IMG/VR virus record: IMGVR_UViG_3300021424_000170
Span: 1 to 29,783 of that record
Direction: 5' to 3' (one strand)
Length of the DNA stretch: 29,783 bases
Source of the DNA: a virus
Shown: positions 23,394 through 28,785 of the stretch, piece after piece
Position numbering within the stretch: position 1 is the first letter of the stretch
Layout: each line of letters starts with the position of its first letter
The notes under the pieces: generated by a model
What the model was told of the DNA's origin: nothing
Databases searched by the model: none
What the model saw: only the letters and a program-made list of their open reading frames with translations
Program-made: the position numbers and the translations under genes

Positions 23394-23567
23394 TTACGCG
23401 CTGGTATCGTCCTTTTTGATAATAAATGACTCCCCATCATCCCCAATCTCATACTTCATTACATCACCCTCAATGAGACCTAACTCATCAATAATCTCCT
23501 GAGGGAACTCGATGAACAAGTCGCCCTCTGTAGTCTCCTGTACTTCTATAATAAACTTTCTGGACAT
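23394..23567 (-). CDS. AbrB/MazE-like small DNA-binding protein
   Basis: 57 residues, from ATG 23567 (AGGAG seven bases upstream) to TAA at 23394-23396. It begins SRKFIIEVQETTEGDLFIEF, then has PQEIIDELGLIEGDVMKYEI and ends in a charged strand. This is the swapped-hairpin AbrB/SpoVT layout: strand, P-(E/D)-x-(I/L) helix, L-x-x-GD turn, strand. Such proteins bind DNA as dimers, as transition regulators or antitoxins; no toxin partner is visible here. Its first codons overlap the end of the preceding 80-residue gene by 22 bases. It may regulate the late cluster, but its target is unknown. Confidence 0.75.
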   Translation of the reverse strand: MSRKFIIEVQETTEGDLFIEFPQEIIDELGLIEGDVMKYEIGDDGESFIIKKDDTSA

Positions 23568-24483: not shown

Positions 24484-24798
24484 TCATGCCAGACGCATAC
24501 CTGAGAAGAACGGAATAGGGGCACCGTTGTAGTTAACGAACCACTGGAAGTTCTTCGAGAAGACATACTCGCCAGGGCAACCAAAGGCACCCAGGATAGC
24601 ATTGAGGCGCGATTTTGTGGTGTTTGATTGCCAACCACCATCGAACAATTCGATCCAGGTTTCACCAATCCGAGCGATCAGATTACCATGCAGATAGACA
24701 TCAGAACAGTCGCTATATGTGACCACCTGAGTGTTACCTGTCCGAAGATCTTTGTGCTCAGCGATGGCATCATTCATCTTGGTTTCGATCTTACGCAT
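24484..24798 (-). CDS. 104-residue hypothetical protein behind a strong sigma70 promoter
   Basis: Reads MRKIETKMNDAIAEHKDLRT, then QVVTYSDCSDVYLHGNLIARIG, ETWIELFDGGWQSNTTKSRLN and FSKNFQWFVNYNGAPIPFF. The pattern is a helix followed by a beta-sheet core (LHGNLIA...W.....GW.S..TKSRLNA). I recall similar short phage proteins of unknown function. The frame is open further upstream to TTG 24894, but that codon sits in the -35 box at 24889-24894, so the usable start must be downstream; ATG 24798 is the first ATG. No Shine-Dalgarno precedes it. Confidence 0.72.
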   Translation of the reverse strand: MRKIETKMNDAIAEHKDLRTGNTQVVTYSDCSDVYLHGNLIARIGETWIELFDGGWQSNTTKSRLNAILGAFGCPGEYVFSKNFQWFVNYNGAPIPFFSGMRLA

Positions 24799-24865
24799 GA
24801 GAGGCGATTGTGAAGGGGTTTGTGATGGCGGGGGATGGGGTTGTTTCCCTCCCTCCGATGCACTC

Positions 24866-24894
24866 AATATAGGACGGATGGAGGGGTCTGTCAA
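24866..24894 (-). promoter_or_regulatory. Near-consensus sigma70 promoter (cassette A)
   Basis: The minus strand has TTGACA (24889-24894), 17 bases, TATATT (24866-24871). Upstream of it are TGATC nine bases before the -35 box, and a CTTATCcctatGATAAG-type inverted repeat (about 24915-24931). These two upstream elements recur at cassette B. It drives the 104-residue gene with a leader of about 65 bases. Confidence 0.75.
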
Positions 24895-24952
24895 GCGATT
24901 TCAGATCAGCAGTGCTTATCATAGGGATAAGGTGATTTTATGAGTCTGAGTC

Positions 24953-24981
24953 TTGACAAATGAGCGAAGTTGTGATACAGT
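24953..24981 (+). promoter_or_regulatory. Possible divergent sigma70 promoter on the plus strand
   Basis: TTGACA (24953-24958), 17 bases ending TGA, then TACAGT (24976-24981), giving an extended -10. No plus-strand gene is convincing downstream, so the product would be antisense to the small genes at 25059 onward, or a short non-coding RNA. An AT-rich run (about 25048-25072) and two TGTGGAAA 9-mers follow it. Confidence 0.4.
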
Positions 24982-25058
24982 GAAGACTTAACTTGCATCT
25001 CTGAGTGTACTTAACTGAGACATTTCTTGAGAGACATAAAACACGCACATATATTTTT

Positions 25059-25238
25059 TTAGGTATTTTTTAGTTGTGGAAATTGTGGAAAACTTTTTAC
25101 ATCTTGCTGAGAATCTTTGTAGAGTTTAGCATCAAGTTTGTCGAGGTATTCATCATGGGAGAGTTGTTCTTCAACACAGAAACAATCACGGTATTCAGGA
25201 TAAAGTTCTTGGTACAGTTTGTCGGTGTTCATGATCAT
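25059..25238 (-). CDS. 59-residue acidic hypothetical protein
   Basis: Begins MIMNTDKLYQELYPEYRDCF; ATG 25238 or the in-frame ATG at 25232 could be used. The middle is charged and helical (EEQLSHDEYLDKLDAKLY) and the end reads KSFPQFPQLKNT before TAA 25059-25061. Its first ATG overlaps the stop of the 32-residue gene (ATGA), so it is the last member of the 37/32/59-residue operon. The FPQFPQ codons contain two tandem TTTCCACAA sequences, linking the coding end to the 9-mer repeats discussed separately. No family recognised. Confidence 0.65.
   Translation of the reverse strand: MIMNTDKLYQELYPEYRDCFCVEEQLSHDEYLDKLDAKLYKDSQQDVKSFPQFPQLKNT
25075..25092. repeat. Two tandem TGTGGAAA(A/T) 9-mers
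   Basis: TGTGGAAAT (25075-25083) directly followed by TGTGGAAAA (25084-25092). The second is identical to the three 9-mers at 24397-24447; the first differs at its last base. They lie inside the last codons of the 59-residue gene, beside an AT-rich run. Confidence 0.5.
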
Positions 25239-25333
25239 TTGGTTCTGTTGGTTGGTTTAGCGTTGAAGAGGATGATACGAACGGGAAGTGTATTTTTGCG
25301 AATCATGTTGGTCTGACGTTGTGCACGAGACAT
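25235..25333 (-). CDS. 32-residue basic peptide
   Basis: Starts at ATG 25333 (MSRAQRQTNMIRKNTLPVRI) and ends NAKPTNRTK. The start is supported by AGGAG about nine bases upstream, one of the few clear ribosome sites in this block. Its ATG comes one base after the stop of the 37-residue membrane peptide (TGACATG), and its own stop overlaps the next ATG (ATGA). Lys/Arg-rich with a hydrophobic centre (VRIILF), it could bind nucleic acid or a membrane. The function is unknown and the product is short, so confidence is moderate. Confidence 0.55.
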   Translation of the reverse strand: MSRAQRQTNMIRKNTLPVRIILFNAKPTNRTK

Positions 25334-25334
25334 G

Positions 25335-25448
25335 TCAAACTTCTCCTTGAATAAAGTTAGCGACGTTGTGAAGTACGGTGCCTGTAGTATAACGTACAGA
25401 GGGCACAGTAAGGAAGGCAATCAGGAACAGAATCGAGAGGAGTTTCAT
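25335..25448 (-). CDS. 37-residue membrane or exported peptide
   Basis: Begins MKLLSILFLIAFLTVPSVRY: a short basic start and a hydrophobic stretch of about 15 residues, which would be a signal peptide or single membrane span. A polar tail of about 20 residues ends FIQGEV. It is translationally linked to the 32-residue gene by TGACATG. The leader is CA-rich (AACACTCAATCA) without Shine-Dalgarno. Such tiny phage membrane peptides often act on the host envelope or membrane enzymes, but no specific role is visible. Confidence 0.6.
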   Translation of the reverse strand: MKLLSILFLIAFLTVPSVRYTTGTVLHNVANFIQGEV

Positions 25449-25480
25449 TGATTGAGTGTTGTGGGTTTTGTTAGAGCGTT

Positions 25481-25675
25481 TCAAGAATCTGTCTTGGTGA
25501 TGGTGTAAGTCAGCATGTCAGGGTAGTATTCTTCAACCTCTGCAATCAGTTCCTCATCAGATAGACTGGAGAAACTTTCTTCGAGTTGATCGCCTACCAT
25601 ACGCATCAAATCTTTGGTGGACATGTTCTCAAGGATGCGGTCGATGTATGCTTCGAGAAGTTCTTGACGGTTCAT
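25481..25675 (-). CDS. 64-residue acidic helical protein
   Basis: Starts at ATG 25675 with a CA-rich leader (ACAACAAAACC) and no Shine-Dalgarno. It reads NRQELLEAYIDRILENMSTK, then a stretch rich in Asp, Glu and Ser (SSLSDEELIAEVEEYYPDML). Nearly all of it should be helical. I recall similar short RQEL.EAY...I...M....L acidic proteins in T4-like cyanophage early regions, without known function. A small acidic protein expressed early could bind a host protein or mimic DNA; this is speculation. Confidence 0.75.
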   Translation of the reverse strand: MNRQELLEAYIDRILENMSTKDLMRMVGDQLEESFSSLSDEELIAEVEEYYPDMLTYTITKTDS

Positions 25676-25706
25676 GGTTTTGTTGTTAGTTAGAGTGAAG
25701 AAAAGT

Positions 25707-25904
25707 TCAGTTCAGAATGATACGATAGTCGATGGATTTGATACACCATCCTGTAGCACATGTGATCTCTTCAATGAGATCATCTTCATCTACTGCTTCC
25801 CAAATCATACCGATAGTTTCGTCGGTAATGTTAGAGAATTGATGCTCGGGAAAGTCATCATCAGAATCAAAATCGAACTCGATTGCAGTAACTTGGAATT
25901 GCAT
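25707..25904 (-). CDS. 65-residue acidic hypothetical protein
   Basis: I take ATG 25904 (MQFQVTAIEFDFDSDDDFPE), which overlaps the preceding stop as TGATG. The TTG one codon earlier is less likely. The order is: a strand with FDFD, an Asp-rich loop, a helix (ITDETIGMIWEAVDEDDLIE), and a C-terminal CATGWCIKSIDYR that looks like a final strand with two Cys four residues apart. It resembles small conserved cyanophage proteins I recall only as hypothetical. It is co-transcribed with the 87-residue gene from cassette B. Confidence 0.75.
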   Translation of the reverse strand: MQFQVTAIEFDFDSDDDFPEHQFSNITDETIGMIWEAVDEDDLIEEITCATGWCIKSIDYRIILN

Positions 25905-26167
25905 CAAACTGCACCGTTGAGAGGATTACCGAACATAGCATAGTCTCGGTTATCACCAGTCAGGATGTAATCATGAGCAAGACGATCACGAATTGCAAGT
26001 GCTTTCTCAACACGATTGAGAAACTTTTTAGAGATTTGATCTACACCTTTCCAGGAAAGGATTTGCATACACCACTCTTCAGAAATGTTGCCATCGGGAG
26101 TTTCTACAGGATAGAATCCGACGAGCATTGTGCCATCCTTGGATTGTAGAGTAGGGAAGTCGATCAT
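25904..26167 (-). CDS. 87-residue hypothetical protein, first gene after promoter cassette B
   Basis: Starts MIDFPTLQSKDGTMLVGFYP at ATG 26167. The N-terminal half looks beta-rich (MLVGFYPVETPDG), the centre has SEEWCMQILSWKGVDQISKK, and a helix (FLNRVEKALAIRDRLAHDYI) follows before a polar end. No family recognised. The leader (AACTTCCCAAACC) lacks a Shine-Dalgarno. Cassette B lies 49 bases upstream, and the stop overlaps the next gene's start, so it heads a run of leftward genes. Confidence 0.75.
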   Translation of the reverse strand: MIDFPTLQSKDGTMLVGFYPVETPDGNISEEWCMQILSWKGVDQISKKFLNRVEKALAIRDRLAHDYILTGDNRDYAMFGNPLNGAV

Positions 26168-26215
26168 GGTTTGGGAAGTTAGGTGGTGGGAGGTCTGTCC
26201 CCCCTTGACTCCTTT

Positions 26216-26281
26216 AGTATGGCACTGATCTGGTAGGAAGTCAACCCTTTTTTGATCAGTGTCGCTTATGAGTGAGATAAG
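26216..26281 (-). promoter_or_regulatory. Promoter/operator cassette B
   Basis: The minus strand has TTGACT (26239-26244), 17 bases, CATACT (26216-26221). Arms ACTGATC (26224-26230) and GATCAGT (26254-26260) form an inverted repeat around the -35 box; the first arm lies in the spacer. A CTTAT...ATAAG inverted repeat (26265-26281) follows upstream. Near-identical elements occur in cassettes A and C. An operator for a repressor or activator is the simplest reading. Confidence 0.7.
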
Positions 26282-26282
26282 G

Positions 26283-26420
26283 TTATTTAATGAGTTTTTG
26301 CTGTTCTACTTTTGCTTTTTCGTGATAGTATGCCTTGAACAGTTTGTCATCTCGTTGAATGAGAAAGGTTTGCCACAGAAGCATAGCAATGACACCGAGG
26401 AAGATGTAAGTCGTTTTCAT
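26283..26420 (-). CDS. 45-residue single-span membrane protein
   Basis: Starts MKTTYIFLGVIAMLLWQTFL at ATG 26420, seven bases after the stop of the preceding 87-residue gene. The frame continues upstream, but that overlaps the preceding gene and looks non-coding. Residues about 5-21 form one membrane span. The remainder is charged (IQRDDKLFKAYYHEKAKVEQ) and probably cytoplasmic. No family recognised. It ends just before cassette B and is the last gene of its run. Confidence 0.65.
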   Translation of the reverse strand: MKTTYIFLGVIAMLLWQTFLIQRDDKLFKAYYHEKAKVEQQKLIK

Positions 26421-26427
26421 AAGTTGA

Positions 26428-26691
26428 TCACCATTTGCCTTGTTGAATGAGAATCTTGCGAATCTCGGTGTAGATAAACGAACGCAATTTAGCGTCGGTA
26501 GTACAATCAAAAGCATGATAAAGACGAGTCAAATACTCTTGCTGTGTGACACATTTGATAGATCGAACAGAGGTCATTCCAAGGTCATTGAGTGTAGAAC
26601 CAGCAGAAACTTTGTTCCTACCGAAGTTGCCAGATACACGTCCAGATGTTCTTAGTTTAGGACGAATCTTGGAGAGATTTGAGTACATCAT
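26428..26691 (-). CDS. 87-residue basic hypothetical protein
   Basis: Begins MMYSNLSKIRPKLRTSGRVS; two adjacent ATGs (26691, 26688) are possible starts. The N-terminal 45 residues are basic, Ser/Gly-rich and probably flexible. The C-terminal half (TQQEYLTRLYHAFDCTTDAK, then SFIYTEIRKILIQQGKW) looks helical. The composition fits a nucleic-acid or nucleoprotein partner, but I recognise no family. It lies between the 52-residue gene and the 45-residue membrane gene, with a few bases between each, in the operon driven by cassette C. Confidence 0.68.
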   Translation of the reverse strand: MMYSNLSKIRPKLRTSGRVSGNFGRNKVSAGSTLNDLGMTSVRSIKCVTQQEYLTRLYHAFDCTTDAKLRSFIYTEIRKILIQQGKW

Positions 26692-26692
26692 C

Positions 26693-26851
26693 TTAGATCA
26701 CAGAAACGTTGATTTCTTTAATGTTAAGTCCACAGAGTTGATTATACACACGCTTGCTAATCGTATCGCAAGCATTTTTTAGTTTTGACCTTTCGTACCA
26801 AATTGTAATACAACCGTCGAAAGTTTCAACCTGAATCCTGATGTCTTTCAT
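26693..26851 (-). CDS. 52-residue hypothetical protein
   Basis: Starts at ATG 26851 (MKDIRIQVETFDGCITIWYE). The longer frame starts at a TTG (26893) and includes a stretch better explained by the 19-residue frame. It reads as two strands, then a helix (RSKLKNACDTISKRVYNQLC) and a final strand (NIKEINVSVI): a compact beta-beta-alpha-beta layout. It has three Cys. No family recognised. The ATG follows a TGA by one base (TGACATG), as at the 37/32-residue pair. Confidence 0.62.
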   Translation of the reverse strand: MKDIRIQVETFDGCITIWYERSKLKNACDTISKRVYNQLCGLNIKEINVSVI

Positions 26852-26852
26852 G

Positions 26853-26912
26853 TCAGTGATGGTGGAAGTAAAAACGAAGAACGATTGAAGCAATGAGAGT
26901 GAAGTGAATCAT
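26853..26912 (-). CDS. Candidate 19-residue hydrophobic micro-protein
   Basis: ATG 26912 overlaps the stop of the 146-residue gene (ATGA), and its TGA ends one base before the 52-residue gene's ATG. The peptide MIHFTLIASIVLRFYFHHH is hydrophobic with three terminal His. Coupling at both ends, and otherwise unexplained spacing, are the only support. It may be a membrane micro-protein or merely a coupling leader. Confidence 0.35.
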   Translation of the reverse strand: MIHFTLIASIVLRFYFHHH

Positions 26913-27349
26913 CGTGCGTAAAGATAACCACCAGACCAGTCAGCATGGACAAACAAATAATCACGATCTTTCATCAATCGCAGATCATAACGTACACCCT
27001 TTGCAGGTTGCTTCCATGATGCGGACTTGTACACTTCACCCGTCTTCTTGTCAACAAATGCATGTGCGGAGCGTTGTCCACCACCATCAACAAAGACAAT
27101 TTTGTGATACTTTTTACCAGAGATGATGTCATACCGAATAGGGCAAATGCCTGCCTTAAGTTTATCAGCAGCAGTTTCGTGGTACAGTACATCTTGATTC
27201 GTATCTTTGATCGCACGATAATGACCACGAATTGCATGGTCAATATAATTCTGACGCAGTGCATCAGTCAGCAACCAGCAATACTTGATGATGTTGAGTT
27301 GCACAGTATTTTGTGCATCGCGTTGCTGTTGATAGTCAGTGAAGGTCAT
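26909..27349 (-). CDS. 146-residue conserved-type cyanophage hypothetical protein
   Basis: Starts at ATG 27349, 22 bases after the -10 box of cassette C, with a Shine-Dalgarno-free leader (AAGACAAAACCC). An N-terminal helix (FTDYQQQRDAQNTVQLNIIK) precedes a core with KYHKIVFVDGGGQRSAHAFV, then DKKTGEVYKSASWKQPAKGVRY and a final HADWSGGYLYAR. I recall the VDKKTG.VYK.ASWK.PAK.VRY...L....ADW.GGYLY pattern from many phage proteins of unknown function. It could be a small enzyme or binding domain, but no catalytic signature is certain. Confidence 0.8.
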   Translation of the reverse strand: MTFTDYQQQRDAQNTVQLNIIKYCWLLTDALRQNYIDHAIRGHYRAIKDTNQDVLYHETAADKLKAGICPIRYDIISGKKYHKIVFVDGGGQRSAHAFVDKKTGEVYKSASWKQPAKGVRYDLRLMKDRDYLFVHADWSGGYLYAR

Positions 27350-27371
27350 GGGTTTTGTCTTGTATGATCAT

Positions 27372-27426
27372 AGTATGGCACTGATCTGGGCAGAAGTCAA
27401 CCCTTTTGAGATCAGTGTTGCTTATG
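27372..27426 (-). promoter_or_regulatory. Promoter/operator cassette C
   Basis: TTGACT (27395-27400), 17 bases, CATACT (27372-27377) on the minus strand. Arms ACTGATCT (27380-27387) and AGATCAGT (27409-27416) form an eight-base perfect inverted repeat around the -35 box, and GCTTATG follows at 27420-27426. The stretch AGATCAGTGCCATACT is shared exactly with the spacer and -10 of cassette B. It drives the 146-residue gene. Confidence 0.72.
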
Positions 27427-27466
27427 GGCACCATGAGGACCGATTAAGTATCCTCATGGCAACATG

Positions 27467-28699
27467 TCATCGAGTCATGGTAGAAATAGCAGGCACACCT
27501 TGCACAAAGATAGTATCAACAACACTCTGCAATCGTTTGGCAATAGCACTACCGTAGTTGGTGAATACTGGCACGATCACATTACCAAACTGTTTGCGAT
27601 AGAGATGACATGCACCTGCAGGAATCTTGCCTGTAGCAATATCCTGGGCATCATCTTTATCCATACGGATAACACGGCCGACGGTTTGTGCCATCTCGAT
27701 GATAGGCATCATCCGCAACATGATGCAGTGAGAGAGACCTGGGACGTTGATACCTTCGGACAGGATGCTATAGTGAAGCAGCACAAATCGCTTGGATTTG
27801 TCTTTGCCCCACTCTGTCAACGTGTCAAAGAACTTCTCACGATTGACCTTGGTTTTGTTAACATAAGCACCATGCTTGGATGTAATATGCAGGATGCCAT
27901 ATCCGCGTTCTTCGAGTTCTCTGAGAATGTCAGAGTTAGTGAGCATATTCCACATCACTTTTGTGCTAGGAGCAGCAACAAGCACCTTAGGATTGTCATG
28001 CTCGATAGTATCGAGAATGTCCACAATCATGTTGCGATCTGCTTCTGCTGCTGTTGCTTTGTTCCGCACAATGTCAACCTTGTAGGTGTCAACTTGCGGA
28101 GGAATGATACAACCAGTCTGAATGAGTTCTTGAGCACGAACGTTGTGAATCACATCACCATAGATACTAACGTTGTTCATACCGTTAGCATTAGGATTGG
28201 TATGATGTTTGGGAGTAGCAGTAAAGAAATACTTGCAATCTGCGGACAGAGATGTAGCGGCCGTTGCAATGAAATGTTTCTTTTGAGTAGAATTGTGTGC
28301 CTCGTCGAAATAAGCAACGTTGACATCTACACCAGAATCAACAACACGATGCAGAGAATGATAGGTGGTGAAGATGATGCGATTGGTGTCCGCATGTTCC
28401 GCAACCCATGCGGAAATGTTGTCGGGCCGAGTAGAAGAATAGTGATGAGTTTCACCACTATGAACGTGCATCACATTTGCATTGGTGATAAACTCAAGAA
28501 ACTCAGCAGAGAGTTGCTCAGCAAGCAGAATACGAGGAGCAACAACAACAGCAACATGACCAGGATTCTGCACAAAACGTTGCAGCAGATTCATGATCAT
28601 GCAAAGAGTTTTACCACCACCAGTAGGAATAACAATTTGACCGATCTTGTGCTGATTCATTGCATCAAGCACACGAGTTTGGTGGAGTCGCAACTTCAT
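27467..28699 (-). CDS. Superfamily II DEAH-box helicase (DNA repair/recombination type)
   Basis: 410 residues. Motifs in order: a Q-motif-like LRLHQTRVL (4-12), Walker A PTGGGKT (25-31), motif Ia VVAPRILLAEQL, DEAH (132-135), TAT (160-162), motif V SEGINVP (314-320) and motif VI QTVGRVIR (338-345). Both RecA-like domains are present and complete, so it should be an ATP-driven translocase or helicase of the Res/RecG/UvsW type. T4-like phages use UvsW to remodel forks and recombination intermediates; this protein is shorter and I do not claim orthology. The frame extends to TTG 28726, but that codon lies in the -10 box, so ATG 28699 is the start. The leader lacks a Shine-Dalgarno. Confidence 0.88.
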   Translation of the reverse strand: MKLRLHQTRVLDAMNQHKIGQIVIPTGGGKTLCMIMNLLQRFVQNPGHVAVVVAPRILLAEQLSAEFLEFITNANVMHVHSGETHHYSSTRPDNISAWVAEHADTNRIIFTTYHSLHRVVDSGVDVNVAYFDEAHNSTQKKHFIATAATSLSADCKYFFTATPKHHTNPNANGMNNVSIYGDVIHNVRAQELIQTGCIIPPQVDTYKVDIVRNKATAAEADRNMIVDILDTIEHDNPKVLVAAPSTKVMWNMLTNSDILRELEERGYGILHITSKHGAYVNKTKVNREKFFDTLTEWGKDKSKRFVLLHYSILSEGINVPGLSHCIMLRMMPIIEMAQTVGRVIRMDKDDAQDIATGKIPAGACHLYRKQFGNVIVPVFTNYGSAIAKRLQSVVDTIFVQGVPAISTMTR

Positions 28700-28722
28700 A
28701 GTGATTTGTTTGGTATGTGAGT

Positions 28723-28761
28723 ACAATAAAGGATCAGAGGTCGAAAGTCAACCCCTGATCC
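28723..28761 (-). promoter_or_regulatory. Promoter/operator cassette D for the helicase
   Basis: TTGACT (28746-28751), 17 bases, TATTGT (28723-28728). GGATCAG (28731-28737) and CTGATCC (28755-28761) form a seven-base inverted repeat around the -35 box. The half-site orientation is reversed relative to cassettes B and C, and the spacing is shorter. The -10 box is 24 bases before the helicase ATG. Confidence 0.68.
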
Positions 28762-28785
28762 CATTAGTATTTTTTATGGCAATGA

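Follow-up and report, generated by a model that had tools for sequence, protein, structure and literature searches.

The window examined here, a 29.8-kb virus record, is part of the genome of a T4-like phage of Synechococcus in the family Kyanoviridae. Its nearest annotated relatives, both T4-like Synechococcus phages of the same family, are S-CREM1 (83% where the two align) and S-H38. Four predicted promoter cassettes, A to D, lie on the minus strand, where a series of small genes adjoins the baseplate wedge genes. The genes 3' of these cassettes encode, in turn, a Kyanoviridae Gp96 family protein (A; ORF 24484-24894 (-)), a small protein that weakly matches phrog_500 (B; ORF 25904-26167 (-)), a DUF7717 protein (C; ORF 26909-27349 (-)), and a DNA helicase (D; ORF 27467-28720 (-)). 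An Rfam search of the region from 23.3 to 29.8 kb returned no RNA family.

All four cassettes carry TTGAC(T/A), a spacer of exactly 17 nt, and a -10 box, as an earlier note on this DNA had reported. The core promoter of cassette A (24866-24894 (-)) pairs TTGACA at 24889-24894 with TATATT at 24866-24871 and has an orthologous promoter in S-H38; B (26216-26244 (-)) has TTGACT at 26239-26244 and CATACT at 26216-26221; C (27372-27400 (-)) repeats these boxes at 27395-27400 and 27372-27377; and D (28723-28751 (-)) combines TTGACT at 28746-28751 with TATTGT at 28723-28728. Taken alone, this core is ordinary, given that TTGAC(A/T)-17-xAxxxT occurs 10 times in the window against a shuffle mean of 6.1, with 18 of 200 shuffles attaining at least that count. 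The TGATC that the same note had placed 9 nt upstream of TTGAC(A/T) in A, B, and C is well above chance (3 in the window, whereas 200 dinucleotide shuffles average 0.065 and never exceed 1). A stronger signal than TGATC comes from ATAAG-N5-CTRAT at 10-11 nt from TTGAC, found three times in the window and in none of the 200 shuffles. Copies of this upstream element are located at 24905-24919 (-) in cassette A (ATAAGCACTGCTGAT, 10 nt from the -35 box), at 26255-26269 (-) in B (ATAAGCGACACTGAT), and at 27411-27425 (-) in C (ATAAGCAACACTGAT), with a degenerate copy at 28763-28777 (-) in D (ATAAAAAATACTAAT, 11 nt from the -35 box). The element had been overlooked earlier, and the cassette D copy has one mismatch, in ATAAG. 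Further likenesses that had been pointed out are as described, namely the CTTAT...ATAAG shared upstream by A and B and the sequence AGATCAGTGCCATACT, which is identical in B and C and has no copy elsewhere in the record at ≤2 mismatches.

The feature conserved in relatives is a 15-bp imperfect dyad, ATAAGCAACRCTRAT (ATNAG-N5-CTNAT), placed 10 or 11 nt upstream of TTGACT, which is followed by 17 nt and a -10 box. Scanning IMG/VR for ATAAGNNACNCTRAT at 8-13 nt from TTGACT yielded 70 stretches, and clustering these with the window, S-CREM1, and S-H38 at up to 6 differences left 80 non-redundant cassettes. The gap between element and -35 box is 10 nt in 44 of these and 11 nt in 36, and the -35/-10 spacer measures 17 nt in 78. 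As an internal control, gaps of 0-30 nt between ATAAGCAACRCTRAT and TTGAC were allowed in IMG/VR, and 98 of 101 non-redundant sites fell at 10 (43) or 11 (55); the other three are not promoters, and a -10-like box follows at 17 nt in 85 of the 98. Positions that the search pattern had left free are also conserved (C at 0.68 and A at 0.84 after ATAAG, and R-T at the presumed start), so that the result is not merely an echo of the query. In whole-record searches the pattern occurs 4 times in S-CREM1, 6 times in S-H38, and 8 times in a 177-kb IMG/VR contig, with none for a reversed-pattern control, and it is missing from six other Kyanoviridae, Syn9, S-PM2, Bellamy, S-CRM01, S-RIM12, and P-SSM2, where the reversed control is likewise zero. 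The promoters of S-CREM1 and S-H38 have the same core with other arms. The cassettes, at 4-8 copies per genome, are grouped between tail-fibre and baseplate genes in a variable region of small ORFs. The element and its 10-11-nt spacing recur in all families of contigs found, persisting over the 80 clusters while arms, spacer, and downstream leader have diverged. Sequence comparison thus establishes both the conservation and the rigid spacing of ATAAGCAACRCTRAT, and the promoters predicted to bear it are a widespread virus promoter family.

An inverted repeat surrounds the -35 box, placing it in the loop or the upper stem; one arm lies between the element and the box, and the 17-nt spacer holds the other. 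The repeat encloses the -35 box in B (26223-26261 (-), CACTGATC...GATCAGTG; MFE -14.3 for the 60-nt cassette) and in C (27379-27417 (-), CACTGATCT...AGATCAGTG; MFE -19.0). The strongest of the four is in D (28730-28762 (-), GGGATCAGGGG...CCTCTGATCC; 15 bp, MFE -23.8), where the GGATCAG...CTGATCC previously noticed is indeed present, and that of A is weak to negligible (MFE -4.8). For the 80 cassettes, folding with their own arms gave an MFE of -9.25 compared with -7.14 ± 0.30 for swapped arms (0/300 permutations), although the IMG/VR cassettes share ancestry, so that permutation tests overstate independence somewhat, an effect that clustering at up to 6 differences reduces and does not remove. 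When classes were set by the bases preceding the -35 box, own arms outperformed swapped arms in the G-rich (z = -7.7) and other/mixed (z = -4.2) classes, and pairing in the C-rich class was not above permutation (z = -1.3). Orthologues of the helicase promoter illustrate the pattern, their arms differing between contigs and mostly remaining complementary, as in GGATCAAGGGG/CCCCTTGATCC and GGTCTAGG/CTAGACC. In most classes, covariation keeps the predicted arm pairing intact. TTTT follows several cassettes, for example GGGGTC-TTGACA-GACCCCTTTTTTT of S-CREM1, and sites resembling intrinsic terminators, in which the loop contains the -35 box and the spacer a U-tract, occur at 79007 and 83401 in S-CREM1, 124309 in S-PM2, 184228 in Bellamy, and 38265 in S-RIM12; the GATC-type hairpins of B and C have no U-tract. 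An inverted repeat alone as the full explanation of the cassettes is ruled out by the fixed spacing of the ATAAGCAACRCTRAT element.

In other Kyanoviridae, the orthologues of gp96, the helicase, and the DUF7717 gene often have a GTGNCA...TGNCAC-type motif upstream instead. A systematic search located this GTG dyad about 46 nt before the -10 box, with P-SSM2 the clearest case (9 at exactly 46, a number that counts some palindromes once on each strand). In IMG/VR, where assignment to the Kyanoviridae is by way of the named genomes, 52 of 70 non-redundant GTGCCAGT-N6-ACTGNCAC sites are spaced 29-31 nt from TATAAT. A TTGAC -35 box is missing from all 52, and hairpin complementarity in them exceeds permutation (0/1000). 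The GTGCCAGT-N6-ACTGGCAC promoters therefore differ from the window cassettes in the sequence of the dyad, in its length of 22 bp, and in the missing TTGAC, but resemble them in serving several of the same orthologous genes, in hairpin complementarity upstream of the -10 box, and in geometry; measured from the -10 box, the two dyads share a centre at about -53 to -54 (-53.5 for GTG).

We propose, with a probability of about 60% judged from sequence, that the four sites are composite terminator-promoter cassettes in which dyad, sigma70 core, and hairpin are combined between early-type operons of a T4-like cyanophage. The ATAAGCAACRCTRAT dyad, centred at about -53/-54, would be the site of a dimeric phage-encoded regulator, most likely aiding recruitment of the host RNA polymerase. 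Downstream of it, the sigma70-type core TTGACT-17-yATAcT would direct a start about 7 nt past the -10 box, a position suggested by the conserved purine-T there. The hairpin, formed in the RNA of the upstream operon, may terminate or attenuate transcription, in which case a single cassette would end one transcript and start the next. Recruitment is preferred over repression as the probable mode of action because the GTG class has no -35 box, although the strong -35 and -10 boxes of the ATAAGCAACRCTRAT class do not by themselves require an activator. A broader version, which we put forward only tentatively and consider somewhat less likely to be right than wrong, would extend this arrangement to the whole family. 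A phage-encoded dimeric regulator at a dyad near -53.5 would drive early/middle genes across the Kyanoviridae, replacing MotA/AsiA, with at least two operator specificities (GTGCCAGT-N6-ACTGGCAC and ATAAGCAACRCTRAT) swapped at orthologous genes between clades and each fused to an insulating terminator-type hairpin. S-CREM1 has both dyad types, so a clean switch of one specificity per phage does not hold.

The cassettes could instead be recombination-prone regulatory repeats of the PeSL (promoter-early stem-loop) type and nothing else, the element hitch-hiking with them and binding no protein. Such an origin would suit the 16 identical bases common to B and C, the flanks that A, B, and one S-CREM1 cassette have in common, which include the end of the upstream gene, and the grouping of cassettes in a variable region of small ORFs; PeSL-mediated shuffling has also been described for T4-like phages (PMC4503421). 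Hitch-hiking does not readily account for an element and spacing kept over 80 clusters whose arms, spacer, and downstream leader have diverged, nor for a different dyad with the same centre at this position in other Kyanoviridae, and we regard it as a doubtful account of the whole. The earlier note had attributed the repetition to a shared regulator or to recent promoter duplication. The evidence strongly favours a recognition element shared upstream of these promoters, although it is not the GATC half-site, and duplication or recombination is plausible for the B/C and A/B likenesses.

If a protein does bind the dyad, the most economical reading is that it would be encoded by the phage, since 200 host-order genomes show no enrichment of either dyad, and a scan of genome contigs gave none either. 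Among the 200 genomes, the GTG dyad was found at 2 loci, its control matching in 7 genomes, and the ATAAG dyad at 13 places in 10 genomes, against 2 for its control, several of these being one recurring Prochlorococcus sequence that lacks a -10 box. UP elements are the region touched by the alpha C-terminal domains of RNA polymerase, and the ATAAGCAACRCTRAT element, spanning about -60 to -46, falls inside the region of such contact, which would allow the host alpha subunit to recognize it with no dedicated regulator. The element is not A/T-rich, however; it is dyad-symmetric and shows no enrichment ahead of host-order promoters, and we consider this explanation unlikely. Phyletic profiling for a clade-specific DNA-binding protein gave no clear candidate for the putative phage regulator. 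An Arc-like protein was rejected, being present only in S-CREM1, S-H38, G006, S-RIM12, and Syn9, as was an AbrB-like protein (phrog_661), present in 8 of 10 genomes examined and absent from Bellamy and S-CRM01.

The GATC half-sites had been read as the shared operator, and such sites might be bound by a phage or host regulator or be subject to Dam methylation. In line with this, GATC recurs in set positions, spacer position 8 accounting for 17 of 26 cassettes, and Dam-type methylase genes are annotated in S-H38 and S-PM2. Over the 80 cassettes, however, GATC is found upstream in 32 and in the spacer in 26, leaving 48 and 54 without it, and the 15 that have both represent only a weak coupling (Fisher p = 0.03); GATC is thus not conserved while the promoters are, and it is ATAAGCAACRCTRAT with its 10-11-nt spacing that recurs instead. 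What was taken for an upstream "TGATC half-site" consists of CTRAT, the right arm of the ATAAGCAACRCTRAT element, and a following C. The supposed inverted half-site in the spacer is better described as one arm of the hairpin, with its partner upstream of the -35 box; the arm sequence differs from one cassette to the next and the arms stay complementary, cassettes fold better with their own arms than with swapped ones, and at the orthologous helicase promoters the arms change together, being replaced by other complementary sequences. A search of IMG/VR for the GATC operator produced 14 matches, of which only L009 is a matching promoter cassette, the remainder being chance-like. The GATC motif is a side product of dyad element and predicted hairpin, layers that happen to read CTGAT-C and GATC-A/C; an operator function is very improbable, and the reading as dyad plus hairpin corrects a plausible misinterpretation. 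Control by a host regulator such as NtcA or PhoB, for which boxes defined as GTA-N8-TAC and CTTA-N7-CTTA have been predicted in cyanophage genomes (PMC3037559), is less credible still, with each box in 1 of 80 cassettes and the ATAAGCAACRCTRAT element not enriched in the 200 host-order genomes.

How, then, do the composite cassettes compare with known systems? T4 middle promoters have a MotA box, TGCTTWA, near -30 in place of the -35 box. The cassettes resemble them in joining an upstream element to a sigma70 -10 box and in the idea of control by a phage protein, but differ in motif and in position (about -30 compared with -53 here). A MotA-dependent middle promoter was rejected, a MotA-like heptamer occurring anywhere in only 4 of 80 cassettes and TTGAC in all 80, as was a T4 early promoter with a GTTTAC-type -35 region (1/80). 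PMC5780444 reports that T4-like cyanophages have neither motA/asiA nor T4-like middle promoters, so a family-wide dyad would matter if it is a regulator site. These phages are abundant marine viruses in which the timing of early and middle genes without MotA/AsiA is unexplained, and a rigid phage-specific dyad at dozens of promoters offers a concrete motif that predicts operon boundaries in poorly annotated variable regions.

The closest known counterpart is the PeSL of T4-type phages, an early promoter with a stem-loop (Arbiol et al. 2010; Comeau et al. 2014; both as described in PMC4503421, which considers S-PM2 to be without a high density of PeSLs). No description of the upstream dyads was found in the publications covered, which take in the PeSL work second-hand, and a prior description may exist. 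A strong sigma70-like promoter, TTGAC(T/A)-17-(-10), is present at all four sites of the window; an attached stem-loop is found in B, C, and D (-14.3, -19.0, and -23.8) and not in A, with covariation of the arms in the family; and the copies, 4-8 per genome, are repeated in hyperplastic regions of small variable genes. Of the recombination trait, there is the 16-mer shared by B and C, and shared flanks in A and B only. We therefore class the cassettes as PeSL-like, with terminator activity and recombination both putative. Like PeSLs, they combine an early-type sigma70 promoter with a stem-loop or terminator and are repeated between small variable genes; unlike PeSLs, as far as their geometry is known second-hand, they enclose the -35 box within the predicted hairpin and carry a conserved 15-bp dyad at a fixed distance upstream.

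Opposite cassette A, one of four minus-strand promoters with a TTGAC(T/A) -35 box (-35/-10 at 24866-24894), lies a divergent plus-strand promoter, TTGACA-17-TACAGT, with a non-coding stretch downstream of it that ends in TATATTTTTTT (24953-25066 for the whole). The terminal part of this stretch, GACATAAAACAC..ACATATxTTTTTTT, is kept in S-CREM1 and S-H38, the nearest annotated relatives, and in the IMG/VR contig G006, and is kept in part in P-SSM2. An Rfam search covering 23.3-29.8 kb returned no match for the stretch, which we regard as a candidate small RNA.

Some cassettes in IMG/VR (e.g. loci L036, L087 and L090) carry TACTTTG ∼25 nt upstream of the ATAAG-type element, the imperfect dyad preceding the -35 box, and CAAAGTA directly after the -10 box, the pair forming an outer inverted repeat that encloses the entire cassette.

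A small AbrB/MazE-like protein with a weak Pfam match (phrog_661; 23394-23567, minus strand), kept in S-CREM1, S-H38, Syn9, S-RIM12, S-PM2, P-SSM2 and one IMG/VR contig, is a possible DNA-binding regulator.

Promoters of other Kyanoviridae bear a different, GTG-type dyad, GTGCCAGT-N6-ACTGGCAC, whose distance to a TATAAT box is fixed at 29-31 nt, and they lack a TTGAC -35 (e.g. P-SSM2 at 44641, 55758, 60627 and 61989; S-CRM01; IMG/VR loci L219-L298). This combination is a second promoter class, apparently family-wide in Kyanoviridae as judged from the named genomes. Both dyad types, ATAAG and GTG, are present in S-CREM1 (loci L003 and L020), which may represent an intermediate state.
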